Source of the DNA: Pratylenchus scribneri
Taxonomy: Eukaryota; Nematoda; Chromadorea; Rhabditida; Pratylenchidae
Direction: 5' to 3'
Assembly: GCA_030063045.1 (NCBI GenBank)
Contig: JAQSEB010000048.1
Span: 682,001-746,000, forward strand
Length of the DNA: 64,000 nt
The notes beneath the pieces were generated by a model. That model was given only the letters and a program-made list of their open reading frames with translations, made no database searches and was not told the origin of the DNA. The position numbers and the translations under genes are program-made. Shown one piece after another: positions 35,416 through 64,000 of the stretch. Numbering within the stretch: position 1 is the first letter of the stretch; every line of letters starts with the position of its first letter.

Positions 35416-38400
35416 TCATAATGATTTGATCAAAGATTTGATTACATATTTTGATGGAATATCATCATAATAATGTTTTCTTGACACAAACATTTCACTA
35501 TAGGTCAATAACGATTCAAAATAATGAACGGCTTGAAAAGCGCATTCAATGAGTTGTAAACATTCCGCATATCGTTGTGCCCCTTTTGTTCCATTGCCAG
35601 CCTGCTGTTGGCAATATTTTAGGAGTAATTGTGAATAATGACATTGTTCTTTGTAGATTAATTCTCTGGCATATGAAGAGAGGCCGGAAATTGCTGAATT
35701 GATGGGAAATTTTAACAAATATTATTCAAAATTCTTGAATCGTTTTAAAAGTATGTTTAAGGCTCGCATGTTTTTATAATAAAATCGTGTACCCAAATGG
35801 ATTTTTCCATTTATAATAGATCTTTAGCATTCTTGTCGTGGAATGGAATATTCTGATGGGGCATAAAATAAAACTCTAATTATTATGATACTAATTTTAC
35901 ATTTTTAAACAGCTAAATCTGGGAATTGACAAAATCCCTTAAACTCGATAGGGTTAAACTAGTTAAATTTTAAAAAATTCTAAACTTCGTATAGGTTCAA
36001 GAATAGATTCATACGATTTATCATGGTCAATTCAGTCTAACAAATTTTCATTTTCAGACTGGAATGAATTTCATCCATTTGTCTAAACCTAAATTAGTTT
36101 TGTTCACAAATTTTTTACTAAAAAATAATTCTAATAAATATCGATCTGTTATAGAAATTTCCATAAAATAAATCAGCCCTTCAAAGTCGAAATGAACTTA
36201 TTTGGTTTACATAGAAGCCGAAATTACAAAAGTTTGCTGGAGCAGCCCTAGCGAATTCCATTAAATTAATTAATTCCCAATTTCATCGTGTGCATTTTAA
36301 AAATCTAAATTTCCGATATATTTTATTTGATATTTGCTGAAAATATTTAAGTGATCTTTGGAATAAAACTATGTAAGCTATTCTATCATTGAAAGAAATT
36401 TAACCTGGATTAGAAAAATGGATTGCAATGAGTAGGGCGAATTCCTCATTGGAAAGCATTGGAATTCGGCGGAATGCCTCAATTGGATGCACAAAAACTA
36501 TTTTCGACATTTCAACTACCCTTTAATATTGAATAAAAAATTATAAATTTAATTAAATTTATATACCTTGGAAAATTTTTAAAAACATTTATATTAATAT
36601 TTAGTATGGAAAATCCTTTTGGTCCTGTCACCGATAATTGGCCTATTTCCACTGAATAATATGCATTGGTTAAATTATTCATTTGATGGCCCAATTCACG
36701 GACGATAATTTCCTAAATATTTTCCATTGAAATTTCATTTTTATTTAAATTATTTTGAAAATAAATGAAAAATCTTCATTTCATTTAAATTAATCCAACA
36801 TTTTAGTATACCTTATCCTTTAACGTTAATTTTCCAAAAATGGGCATTGCTTTCAAAATGCCCACAACCAACAATTGATTAACAATGTGCATCTTTTGAA
36901 CTTTTGGATGCATTTCACCGAATCCAATTTCAACCACTTCTCTCTCTAATTGGGCAATTTCGTCAATGGATGACCGATCAATATATGACTAAAAAATATT
37001 CAATTTATTTTATTTTACCTTAGAATTTTAATTTTTTCTGCGAAATTTTTGTACAAGTATAGAATATTATTGGCCTAAAAATGTTATTTTTAAATAAATT
37101 TTGAAGAATTTAATAATCATTTTGAATGATTAGGGATTAATTTAACATATTAAAATAAAAATATATTATTTAAATAAATTAGCCAAAATATTTACGGAAT
37201 AGCAATCAGCCAATGTGAGAATATTTTCCTGACCATTGAATACTTCTTTTCAATGCCGCTGAATTTATTCAAATATGAATCCGGCAAATCGAAGCATCTA
37301 TCTGTTATTCGCCTATGGGCATTCAAAATTTTTGTCAAATATTCAAATTGATCGCATTCCTATTAAATTTAAATTCATTTTAATATTATTAATTAAATAA
37401 TTTCAAACCCTCTTCACTTCATTGAATATTTGATGACAATAACTGCTATTCCCTAATAAATTTATTGTTTTCGGTGCATCCATTTTTGAATCTTTCAACA
37501 ATAATTTTCGACGGGCTTCTAACGAATCGAACATTCGATTTATTTCACTTCTATTTTCCGAATGCACACTTGCCGGATTCATACCCTGAAGAAGACATCT
37601 GTCCAGTCGACAACCACGACATTTTTCTTATAATATAAATTTTTTAATTTTTTTTAACTAATATTAATTTAATTTAATTAATTATTCTTAACGTGAACAA
37701 TTATTAAATGGTGAGTAATTGTAACTTGTACAATGAACTTTTAATTAATTGTTTTTTTTATTTTTTTATTTCACTCCAAAAAAAATTTTTTAAAGTTTAA
37801 TTTTTGTGTTTCATTCCGGAAAGTTTTAATTTTTGTGTTTCATTCCGGAAAGTTTTTATTTTTGGATTTCATTCCGGAAAGTTTTAATTTTTGTGTTTCA
37901 TTCTGGAAAGTTTTAATTTTTGTGTTTCATTCCGGAAAGTTTTTTAATTTTTTGTGTTTCTTTCCAGAATTAATTTTGTGTTTCTTTCCGGAAAGTTTTA
38001 ATTTTTGTGTTTCATTCCGGAAAGTTTTAAATTTGTGTTTCTTTACGGAAAGTTTTAATTTTTGTTTCATTCCGGAAAGTTTTAAATTTGTGTTTCTTTA
38101 CGGAAAGTTTTATATTTGTGTTTCTTTCCGGAAAGTTTTAAATTCGTGTTTCTTCCGGAAAGTTTTAAATTTGTGTTTCTATCCGGAAAGTTTTAATTTT
38201 TGTGTTTTATTCCGGAAAGTTTTAAATCTGTGTTTCATTCCGGAAAGTTTTAAATTTGTGTTTCATTCCGGAAAGTTTTAATATTTGTGTTTCATTCCGG
38301 AAAGTTTTAATTTTTGTGTTTTATTCCGGAAAGTTTTAAATCTGTGTTTCATTCCGGAAAGTTTTAAATTTGTGTTTCTTTCCGGAAAGTTTTAATTTTT

Positions 38401-39762
38401 GTGTTTCATTCCGGAAAGTTTTAAATTTGTGTTTCTTTCCGGAAAGTTTTAATATTTGTGTTTCTATCCGGAAAGTTTTAATTTTTGTGTTTTATTCCGG
38501 AAAGTTTTAAATCTGTGTTTCATTCCGGAAAGTTTTAAATTTGTGTTTCATTCCGGAAAGTTTTAATATTTGTGTTTCATTCCGGAAAGTTTTAATTTTT
38601 GTGTTTCATTCCGGAAAGTTTTTTAATTTTTTGTGTTTCTTTCCGGAATTAATTTTGTGTTTCTTTCCGGAAAGTTTTAATTTTTGTGTTCCATTCCAGA
38701 AAGTTTTAATTTTTGTGTTCCATTCCAGAAAGTTTTAATTTTTGTGTTCCATTCCAGAAAGTTTTAATTTTTGTGTTCCATTCCAGAAAGTTTTAATTTT
38801 TGTGTTCCATTCCAGAAAGTTTTAATTTTTGTGTTCCATTCCAGAAAGTTTTAATTTTTGTGTTCCATTCCAGAAAGTTTTAATTTTTGTGTTCCATTCC
38901 AGAAAGTTTTAATTTTTGTTTTCATTCCGGAAAGTTTTAATTTTTGGATTTCATTCCGGAAGATTTTAATTTTTTGTGTTTCTTTCCGGAATTAATTTTG
39001 TGTTTCTTTCCGGAAAGTTTTAATTTTTGTGTTTCATTCCGGAAAGTTTTAAATTTGTGTTTCTTTCCGGAAAGTTTTAATTTTTGTGTTTCATTCTGGA
39101 AAGTTTTAATTTTTGTGTTTCATTCCGGAAAGTTTTAAATTTGTGTTTCTTTCCGGAAAGTTTTAATTTTTGTGTTTCATTCCGGAAAGTTTTAAATTTG
39201 TGTTTCATTCCGGAAAGTTTTAATTTTTGTGTTTCATTCCGGAAAGTTTTAAATTTGTGTTTCTTTCCGGAAAGTTTTAAATTTGTGTTTCTTTCCGGAA
39301 AGTTTTAATTTTTGTGTTCCATTCCAGAAAGTTTTAATTTTTGTGTTCCATTCCGGAAAGTTTTAATTTTTGTGTTTCATTCCGGAATGTTTTAATTTTT
39401 GTATTTGACGGAAAGTTTTTTTGTGTTTATTTCGGAAAATTTTATTTTTTTATTTTATTCAGGAAATATCCCATAAAAAGATATATGGTATTCAACCTTT
39501 TGTTAGGTCACATTTTCCATCATTTAGGCAAAAATATTGAGTTTGATTGAGTACAATTCGTCGGAAGAATTGTTTACAACCTTAATAACAATTACTTGGA
39601 AATTTTTAAAACACAATTTTTACCATTACAACTTCAAACACTGTAATATTTGAAACGAGTGAATTTGCCACAAATTAAACAATCTTGGGGTTCCTTTTCC
39701 GTTTTAATCTGCATTAATTTTGGCGTTTCTGTTGTTGGAATTTCATTTTCTGATGTGGGCAT
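35416..39762 (-). pseudogene. nuclear hormone receptor F1, inactivated
   Basis: Same eight-exon plan as F2: 39624-39762, 39497-39580, 37409-37626, 37196-37359, 36812-36988, 36567-36712, 36405-36520, 35416-35693. Two lesions are visible against F2. A TGA stop at 39634-39636 interrupts the first zinc finger between KYYSV and SCNG, and two extra bases near 37247-37250 shift the frame in exon 4, which is 164 bases here and 162 in F2. The rest of the DNA-binding and ligand-binding regions is well kept, and the final exon is identical in protein to F2, so inactivation is recent. The second intron holds a satellite array nearly twice as long as that of F2. Confidence 0.85.
37795..39455. repeat. 28/29-bp satellite array in F1 intron 2
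   Basis: Nearly 60 units such as TTTCATTCCGGAAAGTTTTA plus a TTTTTGTG or AATTTGTG spacer. Most contain the palindrome TTCCGGAA. A block at about 38683-38910 has consecutive near-identical units with TTCCAGAA instead. The open frames crossing the array arise from its composition. Confidence 0.95.
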
Positions 39763-48842: not shown

Positions 48843-50086
48843 TTGCGCGCCCTCGCGCAATTGAGGGTCCCCAAAAATGAAATGAATGAATCAAAGTTTT
48901 GATCTTTTGTTATTCAATTTTGTTCTTCTTCATTCTTTTTCCATTTAGTAGCTTCTCCGTCCGGGCGGGTCCCGATGAAGTTATTGTCCAACTGCTCGAA
49001 TTGAAGTGAATTAGGGAAGCCTCCAATCCGCATGCCAGTTGTTATCCTTTTGCTTGCAGTTGAACAGCAGCTTCCGTGTTCGGCCGTCGATCTTATTATT
49101 TCCGGTCTTCGCTATTCCTTCACCTATTTTTTCCTAGAATTTTTTTTGAACCGCCATTTGTTCTTCGCCTCCCTATCATTTGATTCTCCTATTCTTCTGG
49201 TAAACAATCCTATTTTTATTCGGATGGTAGATCCAATTACTTTGATTAATTGCCATGGCTTTTTGTTCATCTTCTCCTATAATCAAATCCAGAAAAATAT
49301 TTTGAGAGCTAATTTTGCTTCTTTTCCTATTATCCAGCCGTTTGCTGCCAAACCGAAAACAGCAAACTGATGTTACTGGTCCATTGCTTTCAGCCGCCTA
49401 CTGCCAATAGGGAAACAGCAGACTGATCTTACCAAAAGCAATGAATTTTCCTAATCGTCTTCGTCTTCTTGGTCTTTGTATTGCTCCTATAGCACTATTT
49501 GATTAGTTTCCACTGATTTGTCTTTGGAATTATTTTTGGCTCGATTAAATATTCATGGCTTTCCTCCTTAAGCCTAAATTTTGAATGATGCAGCTCCTAC
49601 TGCTTTTTAATAGCCAAATTCAGTTTAATTTAAATTCTTCCTTTTTTATTTTGTGCTGTTAACTTATTAATTCTTCAGTGGAAAAACTATGATCTTTGAT
49701 CTTGAATTGTATTTTATAGAAGCTTCATTTTGCCTAGAAATTAGTTCATTTAAATGGATTTAAGAATTTATTCATCTTGATATTTTTCTTCACTAGACCA
49801 TATTATTTGGCAATAATCAAATCTTTCCTAAGTTTAGCAGCTTCTCTCCTTAGAGAATTTTTGTTCCTGCTCTCTCAAAATTCATTAGCTTGTTTACCGC
49901 GACTGCTTGCAAGTCGGTGTTGAATCTGCATTCCAATGATGTTTCCTTGCTGCAGTCCGTTGAATATTCCTTTCGGCATGTCAAATTGTTGTTACTATAC
50001 TACCCACAGTGCCTATCTTTGGCTCGACGAGTGGTATGAAGACCAAACGTCCTGCGGGATCCTGCTGCATCCTGCTGACTGCGCCA
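48843..50086 (-). mobile_element. non-coding leader between two LTRs
   Basis: About 1.2 kb with no convincing gene, starting on the minus strand with a primer binding site. It contains small hairpins (TTTGCTG/CAGCAAA near 49340-49365). It looks like the 5' leader of a gypsy-type element whose coding part is missing. Confidence 0.5.
50071..50086 (-). promoter_or_regulatory. primer binding site
   Basis: On the minus strand TGGCGCAGTCAGCAGG follows the LTR end without a gap. TGGCGC-type sites are common in Ty3/gypsy elements. Confidence 0.65.
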
Positions 50087-50728
50087 TATTAAGTCATTGT
50101 TGACTTAAGTATTTTAGCCAGGTTCCTTCCCAAACATGGTAGCCTTCGAGGGAGCCATGAGTGGGGAATTGCCGAATTGGAATATTAACATTCATTTATC
50201 CAGATAGAAATCACAATAATAATAATAGGCGAAGATTGGGAATTGGGGCGGCTGGCCCATCGCTGGGCCGCTAGGAAGTTGGGGAGCCCAATCCCCACTA
50301 ATCCTAGGGCCGATCGGGGCGAATGAACACTTAGTGGGGGTGTTAATACCAACCAAAATGGTTGTATTAAAAGTCCCGCTAAGTTCCCTCCGGGCCGGGG
50401 GCACTTCCGAAGGGCCCCGGCCCGGGTATGGGTTACCCCTAGTTTTTATCAAATATAATACACAGTTTTCAATTAAAATATTTATTAGGGATAATAATGC
50501 TCCGGATCGGGATTATTGGGGAGATCCGGAGGGGCAATTCGAAACGGGGGAAAAGGGATGGCCAAGCAAAGCAAAAGCTGAATGAATGAATGAATTGATT
50601 GGGGAACAACGGAGAGGGAATTGGGGAAAAAGGGAGAGGGGTTTTGGGCCAGATTGTGTGGGTGGATGGGCCAATTGTTGATTATTGGTTGGCGGTGGAC
50701 TTTCTTCCAACATTGGTCACCTACAGAT
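50087..50728 (-). repeat. LTR, middle copy (3' LTR of the large element)
   Basis: Shares 254 identical bases with the left LTR, then differs by a roughly 300-bp G-rich segment, then resumes similarity at the CGCGCCCTCGCG block. It probably serves as 3' LTR for the large minus-strand element and as 5' LTR for the leader copy to its left. Confidence 0.55.
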
Positions 50729-51244
50729 TTTCGCGCCCTCGCGAAATTCCATCATCTATGGAAAAATAGAAGGAAATGATTGGGCAAAAAAGTATAGGTC
50801 GAAGGGGAAAATGCAGCTTCGGCCTAGAGGGGAGAAGGCGTCGTCGGCGGATAAAATGATGGGTCCACGGGCAAAAATGGACGGAAGGAAAGGAGAATAG
50901 CCGTCCACAGTGAACATTCCTTTGAACTTACCCATTCCATTTTCCAATCAATTTTCATCTTTCTAGTTTTAATCTTTTAATTTTCTATTAATTCATGTCT
51001 ATTTATTTCCAATTCCAGCATTAAATTTTTAATTCCTTCCTATTTTGTGCCAGTCAAATTTGGTTTTAGTCAATTTTTGGCAGGTAAGTTATTCGAAATT
51101 CCTCCTCCTATTCCCCTAAATCATTTCACATTCTTTTAGTATTAATTTTGCTCTTTGGGAAATGTGAGTTTGTCATTATTATGTGCTGATATCCTCCATT
51201 CCTATTCCAATTTTCCAGCCTAATTAATTTTTCTAATTTTTAGG
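50729..51244. other. 3' region of the large element with a plus-strand splice donor
   Basis: Non-coding on the minus strand. On the plus strand a perfect donor CAG|GTAAGT (51081-51089) and an acceptor TTTTTAG (ending 51243) suggest a 5' untranslated exon of an antisense transcript. Confidence 0.4.
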
Positions 51245-51356
51245 ATGAATTTGTTTCCTTCCATTGGATTTATTATGGTGGCCTTATGTTTTGGTGGGAT
51301 TGGCTTGGCTGAGTGTGCTCCAACGGCGGCTCCAGTGGATATGCCCGGGCCCACAG
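51245..51356 (+). CDS. signal-peptide exon, antisense to the retroelement
   Basis: This begins with ATG one base after a TTTTTAG acceptor and ends at CAG|GTTGAG. It encodes 37 residues that form a clean signal peptide (hydrophobic GFIMVALCFGGIGLA) followed by APTAAPVD. No second coding exon is recognisable in the window. It could belong to a host gene into which the element inserted, or to an antisense transcript starting in the LTR. Only the exon is supported. Confidence 0.4.
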
Positions 51357-51648
51357 GTTGAGTTGATAATAAATTGGCAAATATTGGGAATAAGTTGGGG
51401 GGGGGGGGGAAGGGGGATTATGATTAATGCCTAAGGCAATAAGGTTGAGGGAAAGGTCAGGTTGTGGGGTAATAACATTGAATATTCTTGGAGTATAACA
51501 GAGAACGAATAGTAATAAGCAGGGAAAAGTGTGATTATTGAATAATTTTGTAGAAAAATAAAGGGTAATAAAAAGGAATGAAAAGCGCAGCGAAGCAAAA
51601 ATCCTATAATTGCGTGAATATTGTTTATTTCCAATTCCGATTTCCAAT

Positions 51649-52425
51649 TCATTTTCCTCCCAAAATGTCTTGCATTTGGCCCCATTTTATTGAATCAATT
51701 GTGGTTTGTGTTCCCACTGAATGCATGGCAGTCGATTCTGGCGGTGAACCATAGGCGGCCCTGCTTGTCGATGCGATCATTTCAGGCGGTAAGCGTGGAC
51801 CGTATTCTTCTCCTAAATTTTCCAACATTTCATCCCTATCTTTTTTTGCCTTTTTTGGCCTATCGTCCTTCCTAGATTTTTTATGATGTTTCCGTTTCTT
51901 TTTTCTATCCTTGTCCGGTTCATCCTCCTCCGCTATAATTAAATTTCCAAGGTTCTCTTCGTCATCGCTAGTCAAATAGACTATATTGTTATCGTCTGTT
52001 AATTGGACGATCTCGGCCACCGTATCCTGTGGTACATTCCTAATGACTGAATCCTCCTTTTTGTCATCACTAATGGCAATTTCCTTATTGGCTAATTCAT
52101 TGGCCTTCTTTTTATTATTTTCCTCCATTATTTTCCGCACATCCTCTAGTTCGGCTCGGACCATTTTATTAAATTTTTCAGCTTCCTCTTCCTGGAATCT
52201 ACGTGCCTCCTCTAATTGAGCTTGAATTCTCATTGGTAAAATATCTTTACTACAATATGCTTCAATTCTTCGAACACTACTATATGCCCTAGTATAGGAT
52301 ATCTCATTTTGTGTTACAATTTCCGGGACTAGTGAGAAAGCTGCTGCAACCCTAGCCTTGACTGGTGGAGGCCAACTTTTGGAGTTGGTGCCTAGACAAA
52401 TAATTGGTTTTTTGACGACTTCCAC
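51649..52425 (-). CDS. retroelement accessory protein, acidic/basic coiled coil
   Basis: A 258-codon frame, the last of the element. The N-terminal 60 residues include VAAAFSLVPEI; a Glu-rich coiled coil spans about 65-115; an acidic stretch (TSDDEENLG) follows; and a strongly basic run (KKKRKHHKKSRK) could act as a nuclear signal or RNA contact. It is in the same frame as the G-patch ORF, separated from it by a TAG at 52444-52446, and has no ATG close to its beginning (GTG at 52425). It may therefore be the C-terminal part of a longer product made by readthrough or by the unbroken parent gene. I do not recognise it. Confidence 0.6.
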   Translation of the reverse strand: MEVVKKPIICLGTNSKSWPPPVKARVAAAFSLVPEIVTQNEISYTRAYSSVRRIEAYCSKDILPMRIQAQLEEARRFQEEEAEKFNKMVRAELEDVRKIMEENNKKKANELANKEIAISDDKKEDSVIRNVPQDTVAEIVQLTDDNNIVYLTSDDEENLGNLIIAEEDEPDKDRKKKRKHHKKSRKDDRPKKAKKDRDEMLENLGEEYGPRLPPEMIASTSRAAYGSPPESTAMHSVGTQTTIDSIKWGQMQDILGGK

Positions 52426-52443
52426 ACTAATTTTTGAGGAACT

Positions 52444-53157
52444 CTATTGCATTGCCGGACTCATTCTCATGTTAGAAAGCAATCCTTTTTGGATTGATGC
52501 TTTTGGGCTTTCCGATTCTTCACTATCATTTGTGCCAAAAATTTTTAGGCAAATTCCATCGGCTTCAATCCTAGCTTTCTCTAGACTCCTTTGCCGACTA
52601 ACAGCCTCTGTTGGCAATCCGCTTAATTCGCTATTTATTCTAGCCATATTGTCCTCTTGCCTATTGGTCGATTCCATTCCTATATTATTTGTTTCATTCC
52701 GATTCCCATCATCACTATTTTTGTCTACATTCCCTTCACCTTCCGGGTCGAGTAGATCTTCAATGCAGACAAAAGACGGGGACCCCGAACGAATAGGAGA
52801 GGGTGTGAATTTGCGGTGTCGTCTACGCAATCGTTGAGGTGAAGTTTTTTGACGAGAACGATGTTGAGGGCTTGATGGCCGAAAATGAGTTGGTGGGTTG
52901 ATTGGTTCCACAATGCCTTCCTGATTGGGTCCCAATCCTTGTCCCTCTTTCCATCCCATTGACTGGAGCATTTCGCGGCCTTTACCCTGAACAGGATTGT
53001 TGTCGAGGAGTCGCCGTCCATAATGAATGGGAGGCGGAAGATCCCTCAATTCATTCTCTACCCTATCTTTCTGTTTGGCCAATTCTTCTTCTTCCTCCAT
53101 TTCCCTTTCCAATCTTCTTTTCTTTATTTCGCTGGCTTTCCTTTCCCATTCCTTCAT
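52444..53157 (-). CDS. retroelement G-patch protein
   Basis: 237 residues. A charged coiled coil at 1-40 is followed by a clear G-patch motif at about 55-85 (GREMLQSMGW, then GQGLGPNQEGI), an RNA- or helicase-binding module found in splicing factors and, among retroviruses, at the end of betaretroviral protease. An Arg/Ser/Pro-rich stretch (about 90-120) and a low-complexity acidic tail follow. The ATG lies three bases after the TGA that ends the integrase ORF, in the same frame, so expression by reinitiation or readthrough is plausible. Role inferred: handling of element RNA or contact with a DEAH helicase. Confidence 0.75.
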   Translation of the reverse strand: MKEWERKASEIKKRRLEREMEEEEELAKQKDRVENELRDLPPPIHYGRRLLDNNPVQGKGREMLQSMGWKEGQGLGPNQEGIVEPINPPTHFRPSSPQHRSRQKTSPQRLRRRHRKFTPSPIRSGSPSFVCIEDLLDPEGEGNVDKNSDDGNRNETNNIGMESTNRQEDNMARINSELSGLPTEAVSRQRSLEKARIEADGICLKIFGTNDSEESESPKASIQKGLLSNMRMSPAMQ

Positions 53158-53160
53158 AGT

Positions 53161-56100
53161 TCAAGCGTTCTCTGCTTTACGCATCCGAATGTGGGGAATG
53201 AGGAATTCAACGCGTGCAATTTCTTCCAATACATCGATTAGCCGTTTTTGTTTGTCCAAAAATACTGCTGAAGGGTTTATTTCCTTTCTTTCTTTGAGGA
53301 AGTCATTAATTGCATCCCGTTCTGCCATCAACTGGCCTAATTTAACGCGTTGTTTTTTCACGTCGATTGAGTCGGTGTCGGTGTTGTCCATTTCAACCTG
53401 ATAATCTGGAAATTCTATTTCATCAATTCTCATTGTGATTAAAGGATCATCCCTAGATGGAGAGCGCGCGAAAAAGTCATCTGAGACGTTTAACGGTACA
53501 GTAGGGGACGTTGCTACCTCCTTATATCTCGGGGCATTATTTAATCTATTTTTCAGTCTAGCTACGATTCTTTCTTCCTCTAATTGAATTTTTAATTTCT
53601 CTAATTTATTTTCTTCTGTTTGTAAATTTTTCAAAAATTTTTCACTTTCGTTTAGCCTAATGTTTAACGAAAGGAGATTTTCAACTTCTCGTTTTTCTTC
53701 TTTTATTTTTTTCAGGCGTATTTCAATCTCAGCTATTGTTGGAGATTCCTGTACCTTTGGCTTTTTGTGCCACGGTAGGGCCATATTTTTATTAATTCCT
53801 CTAAAATTATATAAATTAAAGCTGGATCGATGATTGCGGACGCGCAGAGATAATGAATTATTTCGGAGGCCTCTATTGGCCAAAATACGGGAAAGATTTT
53901 GTTCTTCTGTGACCAATTTATTATGTTCCTTTATACTTTTAAAATTAGTATTGGACAAATCTGTCTTAATATTTTCTAATTGCTCAATTAATTCATTGGA
54001 GGGGATAAATTTCTCTTTGGATGCAGACATAAAACATCGCTTTGGCTTAGCATCATCAAATTTAAATGTATTTTGATTATATTTTTGCGCCGGGATGATA
54101 GATTCGACGAACTCTAAAGGATAAAATTCGCGCGAATCTTTTGAGAAGGTAAAATATTCATGATTCTCATCGTCCGTTGTGCGAAGGCCCATGTCCTCTA
54201 ACATATATAAGGCATAAAATCCTAAAATATATCCGCACATGTCACATAATCGGGCGCGCAACGGTTTGGAAACATTTCCATAAACCGGATTTATCATTCT
54301 AACTTTCACATATTCATATTTTCTTCCTTTATGATCTTTGCCTATCAAAATTTGCATTCCTATAGTGGAATCAGTTGGACAAATCATATCAAAATCTTCA
54401 TAATTCCAATCATAGTTTGCTAAGCACAGGCTACCCTTCCATAGAATATTAACTCGGCCAGTGGAATAATTTCCGTTGTGGATAAAACGATGGTCCAAAA
54501 GTCTATACATTTCACATTCGTCTTCTAATGTTGAGAAATGTGCTCGGCCTTGGAATTGTTCCTTTTCAGTCTCATTTGAGAGAGTTGAAAGACTAGATGA
54601 GGACCCATTACGCCTATCATATTCACTCGAATCTATTGAAGTCAGGGATGATTCAGATGAGTCCGCTCTTTCCAGGTTAAACTGGACGACATTTATTTTT
54701 GGACATTCATATTCTTCCAAATAATCTTCAGAAACTTCAGAATCAAAGGATTCGGATTTAACTAATGCAATTTCGTCTTCTGAATCAGATTGCTCTAAGT
54801 TTTTATCGAGTACCACTCTTTTGGCCTTAGCTGGTTCATTCTTAAGTTCCTCTTCCTTATTTTGATCAATATTTTCAACTTCTAATGAATTATATGGTTT
54901 ACACCGATCCATATGTACTTCGAATGGTTCGGCCTCGGATTTTAATTCAACAATTAACAAATTTGGCTTTCTAATTTCGACTATTCGATATGGACCCTGG
55001 TATCTATCACCTAATTTTTTGATATTTTCTACTTTTTTCAGTAAAACTAATGCGCCTATGGTCCATTGTATTGGATTGACTTTATTTTGCTGCTTTATCA
55101 TTTCTTCAGCATTATTTTTCAGAAATTCATGGACTTGGGTCCGAACATTTAATAATAATTCTACCAAATCTTGGATATAAATTGCCATATCCGAGAATTC
55201 TGCTTTTTCTGATCCTAATGCCAATTCTGATGGCATAGATGGCTCAAAACCGTGTAAAACAAAGAAAGGAGTTTGTCCAATTTGGCTATTAAATGCCGTA
55301 TTATATGCAAAAATGAGGTGTGGCAGAATTTCTGCCCAATTCTTTCCTCCTTCAGTGGTTGAGGCCAGCATGTCTCCTAATGTCCTATTAAACCTCTCCA
55401 CCTGTCCATTACTGCTTTGGTGGTAGGCCACGGTGGGAGTATGTTTAAAATGAAGAACTTTGCTTAAGTCTTGGAAAGTGGCTGATAAGAATTGCGTTCC
55501 TCTGTCGGTTCCTATCGAGCCTGGCACTCCGAAATGGCAAACTACTTCACGCAAAAATGCAGAAACGACTGATGTAGCCGACTGTTCCCTAAGGGGTGTC
55601 GCGATCACCCATTTAGAAAATGCGTCTACGGAAATCAAAATGTATTGATATCCTGTCTTTGCTTTTTGCAGTGGACCTAATAAATCAATGTGAATACGAC
55701 CAAAAGGTCTGTTTGCCGGAATTATCGGACAAATTGGTTCCCTACTCTGGTGTTTGCCTATTATTTTCCTTCTTTGGCATTTATCACAGCATTTCAGGAA
55801 GTGAGCTATGTCCGCTGCCATTTTATTCCAAAACAAAGTCCTTTTTATCTTCTCAATGGTCCTAGAAAAGCCTAAATGTCCACCTTGGAGAGGATCAGAA
55901 TGAAATTCCTCAAATATTTGCCTTCTTAGCTTTTTTGGTACTAAAATTTTCAATTCACCATTTTCATTAAAACAAATTAAGTCTTTCCAAAGGCAGAAGT
56001 CGCCGTTCTTGGAATTTTCCTTATCAACTAATTTGCTTAATAATAACTGAGCATATGGATCATTCTTCTGAGCTTCCAGCAGCTCATCCCTAGAAGTTTT

Positions 56101-56361
56101 TGGATTTATTTGAACGTGATTAATTTCATCAATATTATCATTTGTTGGTGGATATCGGGATAAATGGTCACAAAATGCATTTTCTTTGTCTTTTCTATAA
56201 ACCACTTTAATGTCGAAAGCCTGAAGGGCAATTTGATAGCGTGCTAATCTTCCTTGCAAGTCTTTCTTGCGGAATAAAGTGGTTAGGGCGGAATTGTCGG
56301 TTATAACCGTGGTTTCGCCAGCGCCTTCAATATAGACCCTAAACTGTTTTAAAGCTGCCAC
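53161..56361 (-). CDS. RNase H (part), integrase and C-terminal extension
   Basis: 1066 residues. It starts inside RNase H (ITDNSALTTLF, NAFCDHLSRYP). The integrase zinc-binding part is at about 155-200 (HLGFSRT, CCDKCQRRK) and the catalytic core has HIDLLGP at about 224, GTDRGTQF at about 283 and NGQVERFNRTLGD at about 320, giving the D,D-35-E pattern. From about 580 there is a Ser-rich linker, then a roughly 170-residue globular segment (RLCDMCGYILGFYAL) and a long coiled coil (about 880-960) that gypsy integrases normally lack. A stop at 56461 separates this ORF from RT in the same frame, so the polyprotein is interrupted within RNase H. Confidence 0.88.
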   Translation of the reverse strand: MAALKQFRVYIEGAGETTVITDNSALTTLFRKKDLQGRLARYQIALQAFDIKVVYRKDKENAFCDHLSRYPPTNDNIDEINHVQINPKTSRDELLEAQKNDPYAQLLLSKLVDKENSKNGDFCLWKDLICFNENGELKILVPKKLRRQIFEEFHSDPLQGGHLGFSRTIEKIKRTLFWNKMAADIAHFLKCCDKCQRRKIIGKHQSREPICPIIPANRPFGRIHIDLLGPLQKAKTGYQYILISVDAFSKWVIATPLREQSATSVVSAFLREVVCHFGVPGSIGTDRGTQFLSATFQDLSKVLHFKHTPTVAYHQSSNGQVERFNRTLGDMLASTTEGGKNWAEILPHLIFAYNTAFNSQIGQTPFFVLHGFEPSMPSELALGSEKAEFSDMAIYIQDLVELLLNVRTQVHEFLKNNAEEMIKQQNKVNPIQWTIGALVLLKKVENIKKLGDRYQGPYRIVEIRKPNLLIVELKSEAEPFEVHMDRCKPYNSLEVENIDQNKEEELKNEPAKAKRVVLDKNLEQSDSEDEIALVKSESFDSEVSEDYLEEYECPKINVVQFNLERADSSESSLTSIDSSEYDRRNGSSSSLSTLSNETEKEQFQGRAHFSTLEDECEMYRLLDHRFIHNGNYSTGRVNILWKGSLCLANYDWNYEDFDMICPTDSTIGMQILIGKDHKGRKYEYVKVRMINPVYGNVSKPLRARLCDMCGYILGFYALYMLEDMGLRTTDDENHEYFTFSKDSREFYPLEFVESIIPAQKYNQNTFKFDDAKPKRCFMSASKEKFIPSNELIEQLENIKTDLSNTNFKSIKEHNKLVTEEQNLSRILANRGLRNNSLSLRVRNHRSSFNLYNFRGINKNMALPWHKKPKVQESPTIAEIEIRLKKIKEEKREVENLLSLNIRLNESEKFLKNLQTEENKLEKLKIQLEEERIVARLKNRLNNAPRYKEVATSPTVPLNVSDDFFARSPSRDDPLITMRIDEIEFPDYQVEMDNTDTDSIDVKKQRVKLGQLMAERDAINDFLKERKEINPSAVFLDKQKRLIDVLEEIARVEFLIPHIRMRKAENA

Positions 56362-56460
56362 TACTGCTAAAGCTTCTAATTCTACAATTGAGTAATTCTT
56401 TTCGTGTTTATTAAGGGCCCTAGAGAAAAATGCTATGGGATGAGTCTCTCCTTTATTTTC

Positions 56461-59400
56461 CTATAGGAGACAAGCTCCTATTGCAATTGTGCTGGCATCG
56501 GTCTCAATGATAAACGGTTTGCCTAGTTTTGGTGGGGCCAAAACGGGCGCATGTGTGAGCCTATCCTTTAATTGGCTTAATACTTCATCATGAATTGAGG
56601 ACCAATCCGTTGTGGATTCTTTTTTGGTCAGCTCATACAATGGGGCTGCCAATTCCGCAAAGTCTCGAATGAACCTACGGAAGTATGAAAGCATCCCTAT
56701 TAGAGATCTCAATTCAGTAATGTTATTCGGCCGCTTCAATGCATAGATTGGCTTCAGATCCTCGGGATCAATCCTTACTCCATTCTCGGAGATTAAAAAT
56801 CCTAAATATCTGATTTCTCCACAGCCCCATCGGCATTTGTCTGCCCTCAGTTTCAGTCCTACATTTATCATTACTTTGAGGAAGGAATCCAAATCGTTGA
56901 GATGTTCCTCTTCTAGAAAACTTCCTAGAATCACATCATCGAGGTAGGCTAAGAAACTTTGGGATAATTGGTGCCTAACTTCTTCCATCATTTGTTGGAA
57001 TCGGTGGGGAGCTCCGGCTAAACCAAAAGGCATCCTTAGAAATTCGTATAAACCCATATGGGTTATAAATGCCGTTTTCTCTATATGTGGTGGATAAACT
57101 TTCAATTGGTGGAAGCCTGCTTGCATGTCAAATACGCTAAAGTACTTTTTGCCTCCGACTACATCGATTAAATCTTGGATGCGCGGGAGTAAATATGTCT
57201 GCTTCTTAGTACATTTATTGAGAGCCCTATAATCAATTGCGAATCGCCAACTAATGCCGTCTGCCTTTCTGACTAGAACAATGGGACTAGCCCACTCGGA
57301 ACTAGATGGCCTGATTATATTTTGTTCCAGCATTTCACTTAATTGTTTTTCGATTTCGGCCCTAAGGGCATGCGGAATAGGATACGCTCTTTGCTGAATT
57401 GGTTTAACATTATGTAACAGATCAATTTTGTGGACTGTATTCCCTTTATAACATCCAATTCTGCCATCAGCTAGTACGAATGCGTTTTTGTTCACATCGA
57501 CAATTTCTTTTAATCTTCGAATGCCTGTCAGACTCAAAATGGTGTCTTTTAAGTTCAATTTCTCAGAAATTTTTACTGTATCCTTAGATTTTTCGTAGTT
57601 TGGTAAGTCATTGTCCCAGCGGACTTCTTTCGAAACAACTTCTGGCTGTTTTTGAAAAGTATGTACTTCATGCACTTGTATATTTTCAATTTTAATTGGC
57701 TCCAAAATCGCTATTCTCGATTGGCTATGTAAAGTGACTGGAGCTAATGCGAAATTCAGTAACCTAAGCGGCACCAGCCTGGAAAGACCAGGTTTGACTA
57801 AAGCCTTTCCAACTCTAATAGTCCAAAACTGATGTTTGTTTGAATCTTCTACTAGAAATTCATCCTCTTCTCCTAATGGTTGTTCAATATACCCCCATGT
57901 GAAAGTATCTGATTGTGGAGGAAGTGTTTGAGTGCTCAAAATTCGCACTTCAATTGGCTTTGGCTCAATTAAATCTCCCTCAATTACTGAAATCATTGGC
58001 ATTTCTGTTTCTCCGATTTTGACCATTCTATTTTCATAGTCAAACATAACTTTCTTCTGTTCTTCTAAAATATCATTCCCTATGATCATATCATTTGGAC
58101 ACGAATCATCATCCGAGACGAATAATGAGCAGGGAATTTCGACATCATTTAAAGTTAAAATTGTGTTTAATGTTCCTATGGAATGGATTGTAGTCTTATT
58201 TGCGGCCGATGCATGTAAATTATTGCTTCTTTTAATGGGAATTCCAGAAATTTCGGCTACATTTTTTCCACAGTAAGAAATATCTGCGCCACTGTCTACC
58301 AAAGCCTTATGTGGCATATTATTTAACAACACTTGGACTACACACCGTTTTCTCTTCCTAGTATGCACTGCATTAACGCTCGGTGGAACATAATCTAGAA
58401 TATAGGCCTTTTCATGTATTAAGTCTATGGATGGAGCCGAAGGTTGAGTTTTTGGTAGATCACGCATCTCTATGGCATTAATGTCAATTCTTTTTGGTTC
58501 TTGTTCTTTTCTTTTGGTTAAACAGCATAGGAAGAAACTCATCAATGTGTTGGCTATTGTTCTACCCAATTTAAATCCTGTCCAGACTAAACTGAGTATG
58601 AATCTGAATTTCCATGTGAGTATGATTAACGCGAAAAGTATTATTCCGCATCCAATTAAAATTAAGCCTAATTTGACTTGTTCAACTATTGACCATCCTT
58701 GTTCAATCTTTTCTTCAATCTTTTCCTTTGCATTATTGACAAAATCTTTTCCTGATTCGAGTTGCTCTTGAGCAAATGTCGAAACTTTTTCATAGGCTTT
58801 TATGACTACATTTTTGCCTTGTTTGGTTGTTTCCGGACCAAAAACATCAGTGAAAATTTGGGAAACATTTGGTTTAGGGACATTAGTCGGCAATGGCCTT
58901 TCCGCTTTGGCTACTTTTTCTTTAAATTGTTCTAAGTCCCTAGCTAGCCGTGAAGTTTCATCTTCAAAATAAGCGCCGGCTTTTAATATGGTTTGTTGAC
59001 CTGATTTTTCATATTCCTTTAATTTGAATGAATTCATAAGTTCTCCAAATGCTTGCGATTCATTTGTGGAGTGTTTTATGCTGGAACAGGGAACAATTTT
59101 TGCCTCTGGGATCAAATCTCGACTTCCAGGCTTCGCAAAAAGAATTCGATTCCCTACTTGGACTGGTAAAAATTCATAGCAGAGAGCACCTATTTTTTGT
59201 TGCCATAATATCTTTTCAATTTTTGCTTCGGAACATAATCCTATAGTCCATTCCAAATTAATTCCAGCTTCTAAAAATGCGACTAAATCAGTTCGGCTGT
59301 ATAGCAAACGCGCAGCCTCGGTTGGGTTTTGTTTTGCCAGAACTTTCGCTATCCCTAACTGGTGGTTGCGGGTCTGGCAGGTGGTAAGCCATTGCTCGCG

Positions 59401-62400
59401 TGCCGATAATTCCCTTTCCTTAGCTTCCATGTGCGCTAAGTAATTCATCCGACTATTTTGGTGATTAATGTCGTTTAATCGCTGCTCTTCCATCATAATG
59501 TTAGAAACTTCTCTTTTAGTTGGCTTCGTGGTGGCCACCGGTTTATCAGCTTCCAAAAGATTCTTTAGATCAAGCAAAATTTCATTCTTAAGCTTGGCTA
59601 AATCAAATTTTTCCATAATTGAGCTTTCTGTTGATTTAATATCCATTTCATTGAATATAAGCTTGGGTATTGGACTAGTTGTGGGGGTACTAGAAACTTT
59701 TGGCTTCGCCTTTGAAGAAATTGGTTTTGGAGTACTATATGTGGTAAGAATCATCGACCTAGGTGTCGTAGGAAAAGGCTTCGGTGTACTAATTAATGTC
59801 AGAAATGTCGGCTTGGATGTACTGTGTACAATAGGGGTCATGGTTGACTGAACTACAGGTTTTCGGGTCGTGGGTACAGTTTGTGGTCTAGGTTTTCTGG
59901 TGGTAGAAATAATTGGTCTGGGAGTAGTCGGCGGTCTAGGTGTAGTGGTTTGTCTACGGGGTGCAGGTTGAGTAGGAGTTGGCCTAGGCTGGGTTAATGA
60001 AGTGGTAGTGCTAGTAGGTGTTCGAGTAGTGGATGGTTTTGGACTAGTAGTCGGTGGGGGTCGCATTGTGGTACTTGGTTTTGTGGTATGTTTTTGAGTC
60101 ATGGTGGTAGTACTAATTTTAGGGGTTGTGGGAGTTGAGCTAGGTTTTTGTGTAGTTGTGGGTGTCCCAAGAGTATTGGCCACTAAAGAAGATACGATGC
60201 TTTCTAAAGATATGTTACTATTGTCCATCCAAGTCATATTCGCTTCATCTAATGGCATTTGTAAACTGGAAGTTAACATTGGCGGTCGAGTGGTTGAAAC
60301 TTTCCGATTATCTATCTTTATTTTCCTATTATCCGTCTTAGCTGGACTTCGCTTAGTCCTTGGTGCAGGGAATACTATGAACACATCATTGTCCATCAAA
60401 ATGGCTTCATCTGGGACTTCTCGAATGTATGATTCCCTTGTTTGATCAGCTGCCGGTGAAAAGACGTATTCCATGCTATCAATTTTCACTAATCCTATTG
60501 GATCCGAACTATTTCGAAGAATTTCAGCTAAAATCGGTCCTTTTGGATAATGGCTTGCTGTATAATAATCAGAGGGTACATCCCAAATTATTATTTCTTT
60601 TGGATCATCTAAAAAATGTTCTTCTGAACCAAATCGAAATTCTAAAGCATCCCAAGTTATTGGCCACCAAGTTGTTTCCAATCTTCCATTCATAAACCAT
60701 CCTTCTCCTATTTCGATAAAGTAACTTTCATTAACCATGCATTTTTCGCCTATGAAAGCATATTCGGGCTCACTATTTGAACTGATTCCCCACACGGTTT
60801 CAGAAAATCGAGTCAATCCATCATTTCCTACCATTGATCGGCATTTGTCTTCACTAACCAATTTTTGTGAAAAAATAGGTTCGGAAATATCAGTCCAAAT
60901 TTTAAAGAGTGAGTCAGTGCAATAATCTTTTCTTTCGTGCCAGCATTTATAGACGGCAAAAGTTCTTGGAATCCGTATGGGAAAGTAGATGGTCACATTC
61001 GCAAATTCACTTTCCAACGGTGGTAAAGTACAGTTTTGAATTGATGGGAAAGGAATTCGAACTCCTAATTTTTCAGTTGGACAAATTTGGAATTGAGCTT
61101 CACTTATTGGTAGAATGAAAATGCAAATCAGAGAGAGAATTGTAAGAAAAGGAACTCCCACGCTATTAACAAATTGTGTGTTCGATGGACCTCTTCCGCC
61201 TCTGCTATTCCCACTATTCATGAATCGGCCTCTCCATGAGCCTCTATTCCAATTGCCTGAGTTATTAGGTTGACCTAATGGCATGTAATTTGGATTAGAA
61301 TTTCCTCTATAATTGTTCCTATTCTGATTAAAATTTCCAAAATTGCCACGTCCAGCATTATTTCCTCTATTAAAGTTTCCTCGATTATTCTGGTATCCTT
61401 GATTATTCTGGTATCCTTGATTGTTTTGAAATCCTTGGTTGGCTTGATAGCCTTGATTATTGTTCCTATATGAGAAATTATTTCGTCCCCTATATGGTTG
61501 ATATCGTCCCCTAGAATTGAAGTTTGATCGTCCTCGATTTTGGAAGTTTGAACGTTGTGCTTCATTACTCGGTTCATTCTTATTCATTTGTTCTCTAATC
61601 GCGTCAATTTCCATCTTAATTGCGCTGACCTCGAATACGGTTTGATCGACCTTAGCTTTCTGATTTTCTATCTCTCTATCGGTCTGTAATGCGGCTTGCG
61701 TTTCTTCTACTCGCTTTGCCAACTTAATTAATTCCTCAAAGGTATCAGGGGATTCCATAAAAGCTATTTTTTGCTTAAGATCCATCCTTAATCCATTTTT
61801 GAAATAGTCTTTGGCTACATCTTCTCGCCATTCATTTACTCGTGATGCTTTGTCTTCTGGTGTTTCACCAGGAATGTCTGCAAAATTCGCTTCGGGAAAG
61901 GCACGTCTCACTAATTTCCTTATTTCCTGAGCATATTCGTAAATTGATTCTTCAGGCTTTTGCTTGCGTGAGGACAGAATTCGGCGAGCATTTTCTTTTG
62001 AGTTTAGTCTTCTCAAATTGTCTCCCATCGCTTGGGTCAAATTTGCCCATGTGGTCTTTTCAAGTTCACTTAAACTTTCATAAATTGCCCGTGCCTCCTT
62101 TTTTAAGAAAAGGGGCAGTATTTGAGTACACCTAGCGGGGAGCCAGTTATGTGCGCTCGCCACGGCGTTAAACCTTCTTAGATATCCTTCAAAATCTTCT
62201 GAGCCGGTATAATATTCGGGCATTGGTAAACTTGACAAAGTGATATTTGATTCCAATTCTCCTAATCTTCCACCTATACGATTTCCTAATTGGTTGACTA
62301 GGTGTTGAATTTGATCCATTGCTATTTGAGCTCTAGCTCTATTGTCTTCTCTTCTATCTCGTCTTAATTGTCTTTCGTCTATCTGTTCCAATATTTGTTC

Positions 62401-62559
62401 CTCTTCTTCGTCCTCTGTAAAATATTCTTGCTGCTCAACAACGTTAATTCGATTCTTGTTTATCTCTTGAAGGATTATTCTTTTTAAATGTTCACTGGCT
62501 GCGTCAAAGATTTTTTGGCTTATAGAAGTGCTATTGACTGAATCCAGCTTATTTCTCAC
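56461..62559 (-). CDS. Gag - envelope-like - protease - reverse transcriptase polyprotein
   Basis: 2032 codons from a GTG; the first ATG is about 80 codons in. Gag capsid (retrotrans_gag type) spans about 90-290, followed by an Asn/Gly/Arg-rich nucleocapsid with RGR and NNQGYQ repeats (about 330-460) and no CCHC knuckle. A hydrophobic segment at about 466-487 (FLTILSLICIFILPI) acts like a signal peptide and opens an envelope-like module: a Cys- and Trp-rich ectodomain, a furin-type RTKR near 735, a Thr/Pro mucin-like region (about 750-985), a second Cys-containing domain, amphipathic helices and a membrane anchor at about 1298-1320. Then come aspartic protease (VDSGAD near 1421), RT (FAIDYRALN, FDMQAGFHQL, AYLDDVIL near 1870) and the start of RNase H. 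It ends at TAG 56461-56463 in RNase H. The cleavage scheme is unknown. Confidence 0.88.
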   Translation of the reverse strand: MRNKLDSVNSTSISQKIFDAASEHLKRIILQEINKNRINVVEQQEYFTEDEEEEQILEQIDERQLRRDRREDNRARAQIAMDQIQHLVNQLGNRIGGRLGELESNITLSSLPMPEYYTGSEDFEGYLRRFNAVASAHNWLPARCTQILPLFLKKEARAIYESLSELEKTTWANLTQAMGDNLRRLNSKENARRILSSRKQKPEESIYEYAQEIRKLVRRAFPEANFADIPGETPEDKASRVNEWREDVAKDYFKNGLRMDLKQKIAFMESPDTFEELIKLAKRVEETQAALQTDREIENQKAKVDQTVFEVSAIKMEIDAIREQMNKNEPSNEAQRSNFQNRGRSNFNSRGRYQPYRGRNNFSYRNNNQGYQANQGFQNNQGYQNNQGYQNNRGNFNRGNNAGRGNFGNFNQNRNNYRGNSNPNYMPLGQPNNSGNWNRGSWRGRFMNSGNSRGGRGPSNTQFVNSVGVPFLTILSLICIFILPISEAQFQICPTEKLGVRIPFPSIQNCTLPPLESEFANVTIYFPIRIPRTFAVYKCWHERKDYCTDSLFKIWTDISEPIFSQKLVSEDKCRSMVGNDGLTRFSETVWGISSNSEPEYAFIGEKCMVNESYFIEIGEGWFMNGRLETTWWPITWDALEFRFGSEEHFLDDPKEIIIWDVPSDYYTASHYPKGPILAEILRNSSDPIGLVKIDSMEYVFSPAADQTRESYIREVPDEAILMDNDVFIVFPAPRTKRSPAKTDNRKIKIDNRKVSTTRPPMLTSSLQMPLDEANMTWMDNSNISLESIVSSLVANTLGTPTTTQKPSSTPTTPKISTTTMTQKHTTKPSTTMRPPPTTSPKPSTTRTPTSTTTSLTQPRPTPTQPAPRRQTTTPRPPTTPRPIISTTRKPRPQTVPTTRKPVVQSTMTPIVHSTSKPTFLTLISTPKPFPTTPRSMILTTYSTPKPISSKAKPKVSSTPTTSPIPKLIFNEMDIKSTESSIMEKFDLAKLKNEILLDLKNLLEADKPVATTKPTKREVSNIMMEEQRLNDINHQNSRMNYLAHMEAKERELSAREQWLTTCQTRNHQLGIAKVLAKQNPTEAARLLYSRTDLVAFLEAGINLEWTIGLCSEAKIEKILWQQKIGALCYEFLPVQVGNRILFAKPGSRDLIPEAKIVPCSSIKHSTNESQAFGELMNSFKLKEYEKSGQQTILKAGAYFEDETSRLARDLEQFKEKVAKAERPLPTNVPKPNVSQIFTDVFGPETTKQGKNVVIKAYEKVSTFAQEQLESGKDFVNNAKEKIEEKIEQGWSIVEQVKLGLILIGCGIILFALIILTWKFRFILSLVWTGFKLGRTIANTLMSFFLCCLTKRKEQEPKRIDINAIEMRDLPKTQPSAPSIDLIHEKAYILDYVPPSVNAVHTRKRKRCVVQVLLNNMPHKALVDSGADISYCGKNVAEISGIPIKRSNNLHASAANKTTIHSIGTLNTILTLNDVEIPCSLFVSDDDSCPNDMIIGNDILEEQKKVMFDYENRMVKIGETEMPMISVIEGDLIEPKPIEVRILSTQTLPPQSDTFTWGYIEQPLGEEDEFLVEDSNKHQFWTIRVGKALVKPGLSRLVPLRLLNFALAPVTLHSQSRIAILEPIKIENIQVHEVHTFQKQPEVVSKEVRWDNDLPNYEKSKDTVKISEKLNLKDTILSLTGIRRLKEIVDVNKNAFVLADGRIGCYKGNTVHKIDLLHNVKPIQQRAYPIPHALRAEIEKQLSEMLEQNIIRPSSSEWASPIVLVRKADGISWRFAIDYRALNKCTKKQTYLLPRIQDLIDVVGGKKYFSVFDMQAGFHQLKVYPPHIEKTAFITHMGLYEFLRMPFGLAGAPHRFQQMMEEVRHQLSQSFLAYLDDVILGSFLEEEHLNDLDSFLKVMINVGLKLRADKCRWGCGEIRYLGFLISENGVRIDPEDLKPIYALKRPNNITELRSLIGMLSYFRRFIRDFAELAAPLYELTKKESTTDWSSIHDEVLSQLKDRLTHAPVLAPPKLGKPFIIETDASTIAIGACLL

Positions 62560-62574
62560 TTCAGTATTTATTCA

Positions 62575-63020
62575 GATAATGAATTTCTTTGAAATAAGAA
62601 TACAGGCTGGGGATTCAAAATATTCTAAGCGCTCAAGTTTCTCCCACTTCTTTCTTATTTTTCTTCCTCCTTTTCGGAAAGTGTCGTCGATTAGGTTTAT
62701 AAAAGTTATTCTTCGCTGAATAGGGATACTATTTTTGTATTTATTGAAAGTCTGATAAATGCAAATTTGTGATAGGCGATTGAGAATATAGTTTTTAGTT
62801 TCTCTTTGCTTGAAGTATTTTGGTATAATAGAAAGAAAGATTGATATAAAGATTTCGGTTTTCTTATTATCGTGGACGAATGTTTGAGTCCGAACGTTAA
62901 TGTCCAAATTAATTCGACTAGGGAATACAAGCCTTTTTGGCCGTTGAAATTCAAACTCCGGATCTAAACTATGAATATTTTGGTCTCCAATTGTTGAATT
63001 GGAAAGTTGACAATATTGTT
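62575..63020 (-). CDS. upstream ORF in the Gag frame
   Basis: An open stretch of about 145 codons in the same frame as Gag, ended by a TGA at 62572-62574, about 12 bases before the Gag ORF's first GTG. Composition is coding-like (FEFQRPKRLVFPSRIN, then INVRTQTFVHDN). It has no ATG near its beginning and overlaps the ORF upstream by about 50 bases. It may be an N-terminal, matrix-like part of Gag. I do not recognise the fold. Confidence 0.5.
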
Positions 63021-63606
63021 ATTTTCAAAGTAATTCCACTTCTTAATTAACTTCGCTAATGTCCGGTTATATGAATTTCTTAATAATTTGATTACTACTT
63101 TTCTCTTCTCTTCTCTAATTTGTGATTGTATTGGATTATATGTCTTTATTAAGTACTGTTGCTTTATTTCTTGTCCTATCCACTGTTTTTGTACGGTGTG
63201 ACAAATTCGTTCAGGTATAACCAAAATCGCTAAAGTGAGACAGATTTTTCTCTTTCCTAATAGGAAATCTTCGATCAGAACTTTTGACTTAAATCGGTAG
63301 TCACAATATGGAAAGAGTATACGTCCTCTTTCAGGAAACAGAAAATCCGGGTTATTTTCTTCTCTAGCTCTTCTTTCTTGTTCCCTAATAAATTCTTGAT
63401 TTCTTGCCCTAGCCTCTTCCTGTAGGATGCGAATAGCTTCGAGGTGTGCTAGCTGTACCTCAAAGTTATTATTGTTGGCGCCTAATTGTTCCTCCTCAAC
63501 TGGTAATTCAGTTGGAATTTTTGGACACAGTTTGACCTTATACTCTTTCTCGCTTCTCTTTTTTTTTCTTCCTTTTTCTTCTTTTAATCCGAAATTTCCT
63601 AGATGT
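62964..63606 (-). CDS. 5'-most ORF of the large element
   Basis: About 214 open codons without an ATG (first usable start is a TTG at 63224). The start is Lys/Glu-rich; the middle has an amphipathic helix rich in Glu and Arg (LAHLEAIRILQEEARAR), then RILFPYCDYRF and RICHTVQKQW. It overlaps the next ORF, which is in the -1 frame relative to it. Frameshifting, splicing or mutation could connect them. Unknown function. Confidence 0.45.
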
Positions 63607-64000
63607 TAATTTTTTATATTCGCTTTTCACTCTTTAATGACTTGTATTCAATTCAGTTACTTACTGGGCCCAGTATATGTAAACTTTTGATGATTATTCA
63701 ATTTTTAATAGACAAGTTTTGCGCGCGAAATAATTTGTTTTGTTTGCTAAAAACAATGATTAGTCCTCTTCTCTTCCCTTTTTGAGACCCGATGGGACTT
63801 GGGGAGAGGAATTTATGCTTTTTGTATTTCCAAAACTCTTTTATAGACCCAATGAGACTTGGGAATTGGAATTGAGTGATTTAAGGGCGTCCCCTTAGCG
63901 AATTAGAGGGAAAGGAAATTTCCGGGACGGTAAAAGGAAAATTGTTAAGGCAGTATCAAAGTTGACTAATTCGGAAAGGAAAGGAGAAAGAAATATATGT
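63607..64000. other. leader side of the large element, to the window edge
   Basis: No coding frame. Two imperfect repeats of GAGACCCGATGGGACTTGGG (63784 and about 63844) are visible. No LTR match to 50087-50728 is evident, so the 5' LTR is probably outside. Confidence 0.4.

Follow-up and report, generated by a model that had tools for sequence, protein, structure and literature searches.

A window of 64,000 nucleotides from the nematode Pratylenchus scribneri (contig JAQSEB010000048.1, positions 682,001 to 746,000) contains, on its minus strand, a long terminal repeat (LTR) retroelement in which an envelope-like (Env) module lies between Gag and Pol. From 62571 to 56461, the open reading frame translation of the window gives a single stop-free frame of 2036 codons that holds, in this order, Gag, a signal peptide, a Cys-rich domain, a furin-like site, a Thr/Pro tract, a second domain, a membrane anchor, a protease and a reverse transcriptase (RT). 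The first-pass annotation of this DNA had described the module, from signal peptide, Cys-rich ectodomain and RTKR site to Thr/Pro tract, second domain and anchor, and had set it between the nucleocapsid and a DSGA protease; all these features are found where it placed them, with the Pfam family Retrotrans_gag upstream and retropepsin and RVT_1 downstream (Table 1). Past the RT, the coding plan also takes in an integrase, a long tail and, at its far end, a G-patch, a part that the annotation did not include. The reading preferred here, to which we give a probability of about 0.62, is that Env is a class III fusogen resembling glycoprotein B (gB), encoded inside the Gag-Pol frame, and that unspliced RNA gives one Gag-Env-Pol chain.

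Table 1. Features of the element, in window coordinates and in coding order
Feature	Position	Strand	Evidence or remark
Gag	61168..62571	-	Retrotrans_gag PF03732 1.7e-6 at 61900-62121; RGG/N-rich nucleocapsid-like end
Internal signal peptide, cleavage-like end A|QFQIC	~61096..61167	-	Hydrophobic peak, 15-sequence alignment
EnvN, Cys-rich N-terminal ectodomain with six cysteines invariant; putative class III domains I-II	60361..61095	-	11-sequence alignment
RTKR furin-like site	60349..60360	-	Sequence motif
Mucin-like Thr/Pro/Ser tract	~59637..60300	-	Up to 69% T+P+S per 100 residues
TKR, possible second processing site ahead of second domain	59512..59520	-	Sequence
EnvC, fusion domain next to the membrane, with four cysteines invariant; putative class III domain III and following parts	58672..59499	-	PF24664 1.4e-7
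Transmembrane anchor, single	58615..58671	-	Mean hydropathy 2.89 over 19 residues
Retropepsin, DSGA protease	58063..58338	-	PF13975 1e-9, PF00077 8.9e-5
RT core RVT_1, Ty3 type	56797..57270	-	PF00078 3.1e-26
RNase H, in-frame stop inside in window copy	56215..56604	-	Pfam
Integrase, H2C2 zinc domain and rve core	55420..55941	-	PF17921 7.9e-19, PF00665 1.1e-14
Long C-terminal extension	53164..54801	-	No Pfam match above cutoff
G-patch, far end of frame, after two in-frame stops in window copy	52897..52986	-	PF01585 5.9e-13
3' LTR, 372 bp, TG...CA	50341..50712	-	5' partner outside window, C48:748362-748733

The arrangement is a family trait in the genome. The N-terminal and membrane-proximal parts of Env (EnvN and EnvC) each have 62 matches genome-wide, many of the former within frames of 2000-3590 codons, and Gag and RT have at least 78 (128 of 179 candidates scored) and at least 101 (101 scored of 207 candidates), respectively. 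Gag lies no more than 3 kb upstream at 60 of the 62 EnvN loci and is in frame at 59 of these 60, which extends to the genome the annotation's claim that Env is in frame with Gag. EnvC follows within 5 kb at 59 of the 62 loci (in frame at 54 of 59), both neighbours are present at 58, and all three share one open frame, taken as equal frame length, at 46 of these 58. An RT is found 1.5-6.5 kb downstream at 55 loci, in the same open frame at 43 of 62, the pairing being based on the 67 of 101 RT matches with at least 248 bits. Loci and copies are not independent, some being tandem or near-identical; the 32 EnvN sequences compared, out of the 62 loci, group into 10 clusters when the identity cutoff is 80% and into 8 when it is 60%. 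When four relatives (L034-L037) with Env identities of 21-53% were read domain by domain, Gag, EnvN, EnvC, protease, RT, RNase H and integrase stood in one frame in all four, and a fifth (L040) has the same domain order in one frame. The annotation had named relatives of ordinary order, with evidence of a rearranged chimera in the window copy, as what would refute its reading; divergent elements keep the same order instead. A chimera that joined a retroelement to a host or viral gene would fit the stops in the window copy and the LTR edges, where no target site duplication was noticed by eye, but with 62 EnvN loci in many families sharing order and frame, and with two LTR-bounded copies, it is extremely improbable.

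By its domains, the element is a member of Ty3/gypsy (Metaviridae). Protease, RT, RNase H and integrase follow one another between the LTRs in the arrangement of that family, and the best match of the RT in the PDB is the Ty3 RT 4ol8 (1.9e-52, top of 32), a one-sided contrast as no BEL/Pao RT is named among those matches. The Metaviridae feature of Gag followed directly by protease is absent, since the Env module intervenes in the window, in L034-L037 and L040, and in the more distant L042-L044 described below.

The signals that delimit the module are conserved as well. All 30 loci compared have a hydrophobic signal peak at the Gag-Env border, and 26 of them have an RxKR furin-like site 250-275 residues along, several relatives having a second RxKR site at 518-605 residues. 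Six cysteines of EnvN are invariant in 11 aligned sequences and four of EnvC in 17, several of them incomplete. According to hydropathy only, the signal region and one anchor are the sole membrane segments of the frames in the window, L034-L036 and L040, while L037 has in addition a marginal hydrophobic stretch inside the integrase. This agrees with the earlier suggestion that the Gag and Pol ends would face the cytoplasm: with the signal peptide bordering Gag and the single anchor bordering the protease, translation of the unspliced RNA would leave Gag and Pol cytosolic and Env lumenal. In regard to selection, EnvN has a median ratio of nonsynonymous to synonymous substitution (dN/dS) of 0.09 (51 pairs) and is under purifying selection. 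Pooled over 31 pairs, the ratio is 0.16 for the nucleocapsid-linker, 0.18 for the signal peptide, 0.09 for EnvN, 0.445 for the mucin tract, which exceeds both its neighbours, and 0.20 for EnvC, these pairs not being independent. Across the Gag-Env junction, where dN/dS is 0.16-0.18, the region behaves, by this measure, as translated protein.

The resemblance of Env to viral fusion glycoproteins is clear for EnvC and weak for EnvN, as judged from profile comparisons. At E values up to 1, Pfam gives PF24664 (Monjiviricetes_fusion, 'Viral fusion glycoprotein'), a family whose class III standing is not confirmed from a paper, in 17 of 17 EnvC members (best 2e-13), and PF00606 (Glycoprotein_B, Herpesvirus) in six of them (best 1.7e-6), with a value of 1.1e-6 for L040. 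In searches of the PDB that listed matches at E up to 10, gB accounts for all five matches of the EnvN profile (E 0.36-0.79) and for six of the seven obtained with a profile of the distant Env of the L042-L044 type (E 0.062-0.28), the N-terminal half of this Env being the part that aligns; the latter count includes, as gB, the chains BALF4 and GP110. In both sets of gB alignments, the first two cysteines pair with those of gB at equal spacing. The EnvC matches are placed in what appears to be the part of gB with the long central helix, and domain III with its central helix is described in a passage of PMC7518877. We read Env as one putative class III, gB-like fusogen, in which EnvN would supply domains I-II and EnvC domain III onward. 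The first-pass annotation had listed an ectodomain and a second domain; both are present, but rather than separate domains they would be one gB-type fusogen split at the furin loop. Likewise, we read the Thr/Pro tract as a probable enlargement of this loop, on the assumption that its position is that of the furin loop in gB.

Relatives beyond the closest group extend the picture. The upstream part was read for four of 34 lower-scoring RT matches, with RT identities of 32-37% (L041-L044), and in three of them (L042-L044) a single frame encodes, in this order, Gag, a signal peptide, an anchor and a D[ST]GA protease. The Env of these three has cysteines and an NPT-like motif in common with EnvC; its furin-like site is compact, and a mucin tract is lacking. 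In the fourth, L041, the 925-codon stretch examined is free of hydrophobic segments, and the element looks like an ordinary Gag-Pol element. In a closer relative, L039 (RT 43-45%), a short signal-ectodomain-anchor module without similarity to EnvN or EnvC occupies the place of Env; two retropepsin-like motifs were noticed by eye ahead of its RT (L039:1747-4836). At even odds, and barring a second gain, the plan with Env between Gag and Pol would date back to the divergence of RT lineages whose present difference is about 65%.

From the order, the frame and their conservation, together with the selection and the paired signal and anchor, we infer translation as a single chain. The unspliced RNA would be translated into Gag-Env-Pol, Gag being made in the cytosol until the internal signal peptide sends the ribosome to the endoplasmic reticulum (ER); Env would then be threaded into the ER lumen until the anchor halts transfer, and synthesis would go on in the cytosol with protease, RT and integrase. 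The cut between Gag and Env would fall to signal peptidase, with the signal peptide staying behind at the C-terminus of Gag and tethering it to the membrane; furin would cleave beside the mucin-like loop, and the protease of the element would release Pol from the Env tail, Pol being tethered by the Env anchor until then. Gag, Env and Pol would in this way begin together at one membrane in a fixed ratio, as in flaviviruses. The flavivirus polyprotein holds capsid, internal signal peptide, envelope, anchor and enzymes in one chain that is threaded through the ER membrane. Extended to the group, the proposal is of a large nematode Ty3/gypsy radiation whose virion would arise, in flavivirus fashion, from Gag-Env-Pol with tethered Gag and Pol and would enter cells by a gB-type fusogen with a mucin-filled furin loop, a claim that we hold to be evenly balanced.

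Splicing offers another way of expressing the same frame. Env may be made mainly from a cis-spliced or spliced leader (SL) trans-spliced subgenomic RNA, or its segment may be spliced out of a Gag-Pol messenger, the fusion being a minor product or a precursor. SL1-like genes are present in the host: of 41 matches, none above the Rfam cutoff, the one in L038 holds an exact copy of the 22-nt sequence that we take to be the SL1 leader, in keeping with a nematode host. Over ten representatives compared with codon shuffles, the surroundings of the Gag-Env junction show a mild excess of acceptor-like TTTNCAG motifs (16 against 10.1, with 6 of 300 shuffles as high), and in L009 and L020 an in-frame Met stands about 30 nt after TTTCAG. 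In Cer1 of Caenorhabditis elegans, a spliced RNA exists besides the unspliced one, according to parts of PMC3315495 and PMC10309623. However, TTTCAG alone is not enriched (10 against 8.3), GTRAGT donors are not above chance (1 against 2.5; weaker or unusual donors lie outside the motif), and each of the seven TTT[N]CAG sites listed for five loci codes for Phe-Gln, most of them within repeats of the RGG type. Furthermore, no Met just before the signal peptide is conserved in 16 loci, and both junctions of the module keep the frame (59/60 and 54/59), which an intron would have no need to do, nor to remain free of stops. Expression chiefly through splicing is a possible but rather unlikely account.

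Along with the acceptor-motif enrichment, several observations weigh against a gB-like fusogen made within a Gag-Env-Pol chain. A fixed 1:1:1 ratio would be unusual for a virion, and several copies, the window's among them, have stops or frame breaks, the in-frame stop within RNase H of the window copy being followed by more downstream. Searches of protein databases with EnvN, EnvC and an EnvC alignment found no relatives outside this genome, and a scan of IMG/VR gave two pattern matches, none confirmed. With regard to the fold, the PF00606 matches are under the curated cutoff of that family, and among 15 EnvN members Pfam gives nothing significant, the best value being 0.0089 for DUF659 in a single member. 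Of the distant elements, L043 matches PF24664 at 3.7e-6, just under the family cutoff, and L042 and L044 match no Pfam family. The PDB profile matches to gB are weak overall (E 0.046-1.5); two EnvC profiles place other proteins first, namely arenavirus nucleoprotein for A2 (E 0.02-0.04, best gB 0.63) and dynein light chain for A4 (0.0093, best gB 0.046), and there is no gB among the 48 PDB matches of the L040 EnvC alone. Single-sequence structure models of EnvC and EnvN reach a pLDDT (predicted local distance difference test) of 51 and 33 and are unusable for the fold. The likeness of EnvC to arenavirus nucleoprotein (Pfam 1.3e-5, sub-cutoff, in one of 17 members; PDB profiles 0.02 for A2 and 0.6 for A4) was taken as chance, perhaps a coiled coil.

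These structure models, the mucin-like tract and the fact that no fusion loop was identified in the Env module are also what could be expected if the module were a membrane glycoprotein of the element without fusion activity, serving in attachment or as a decoy. The presence of PF24664 in all EnvC members and of Glycoprotein_B in about a third of them, the furin-like site at most loci and the gB matches obtained with both halves of Env speak for the gB-like fusogen instead, and a non-fusogenic role is considered quite improbable.

In regard to the whole unit, the two LTRs are 100% identical and start 16.0 kb apart, enclosing about 16.4 kb, and because of this identity the element in the window suggests a recent insertion. 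A direct-repeat search of 50000-64000 missed the LTRs because one of them lies outside the window. When the genome was searched with the LTR, a copy on C12 was also found with two LTRs at similar spacing, and C114 has one lone LTR. In the C12 copy, EnvC, RT, tail and G-patch share one frame of 2812 codons, the frame being broken between EnvN and EnvC. No clear polypurine tract was seen by eye; a TGG-starting stretch beside the 5' LTR could be the primer site. The gap of about 3.8 kb between the 5' LTR and the Gag frame (62572-64000 and L033:1-3361) is long for a leader. The G-patch is matched genome-wide only in the C48 and C12 copies (two matches, 16 candidates scored); betaretroviruses also have a G-patch, adjoining the protease. 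The C-terminal tail has 14 matches in the genome, the window's own included, and in L037 (6585-6881) a piece of it (residues ~116-213) sits between RNase H and integrase; this piece is apparently an accessory domain that changes place among elements. Elsewhere in the window, long tandem-like repeat arrays occupy 8366-10168 and 37750-39470.

In reverse-transcribing viruses, the place of Env and its expression apart from the rest are generally regarded as settled features, and an in-frame Env conserved between Gag and Pol represents another workable genome plan. The Gag-Env-Pol layout suggests a membrane-tethered route of assembly and would give the Ty3/gypsy branch a class III fusogen of the gB kind, with a bearing on how retrotransposons become viruses and on the origin of class III fusogens. 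Among the titles and abstract openings listed by searches that left most subscription journals outside, none names an order with Env between Gag and Pol, which is no proof of absence in print.

Among known systems, the flaviviruses are alike in polyprotein layout, to which the present element corresponds in that, by hydropathy, its signal and stop-transfer segments are confined to the two borders of the Env module; flaviviruses are unrelated positive-strand RNA viruses, and the likeness is an analogy of working only. Errantiviruses such as gypsy and ZAM are, like the present element, Ty3/gypsy elements with Env, and carry it after the integrase. Here Env precedes the protease, and downstream of the integrase there are the tail and the G-patch, with no Env family above the Pfam cutoff (a sub-cutoff Hanta_Gc_N match of 0.016 overlies the integrase). 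The errantivirus envelope is considered in part of PMC12440569 to come likely from a baculovirus; no baculovirus F-like (class I) family appeared in the Pfam scans of Env. Cer1 resembles the present element in being Ty3/gypsy with Gag and Pol in one long frame and an extra protein; this protein, CERV, is nuclear and made from spliced RNA, and no Env is described in the relevant parts of PMC3315495 and PMC10309623.

Among BEL/Pao elements, the mosquito Pao element Anakin carries a chuvirus glycoprotein (PMC7642597, in part), and a survey of Jingchuvirales glycoproteins reports no clear sign that Gypsy or Copia elements have captured one (PMC10084718). Anakin and the surveyed elements share with the present one a Jingchuvirales-type glycoprotein in an LTR element, but are BEL/Pao. 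Tas of Ascaris is likewise a nematode retroelement with a gB-like env, described as weakly similar to herpesvirus gB (class III) in a passage of PMC9094657; it is BEL/Pao, and its env lies downstream of the polyprotein according to part of PMC7642597. On where the env of Tas and that of Cer7 came from, those portions of the two papers differ. A phlebovirus-like Env in a fused polyprotein is known from Atlas virus and other nematode Belpaoviridae, as noted in PMC9094657, though in Atlas Env comes last; with this precedent, and with splicing as another possible route, the first-pass annotation's 'new solution to virion assembly' is no more than a possibility. Atlas is likewise a nematode LTR element with Env in its polyprotein, but it is BEL/Pao rather than Ty3, and its class II GN-GC Env is C-terminal, after Pol (same source, in part), whereas the present element combines a Ty3-type RT with an Env that precedes the protease. 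The element differs from these known relatives, Atlas and Tas, in the position of Env or in the retroelement family.

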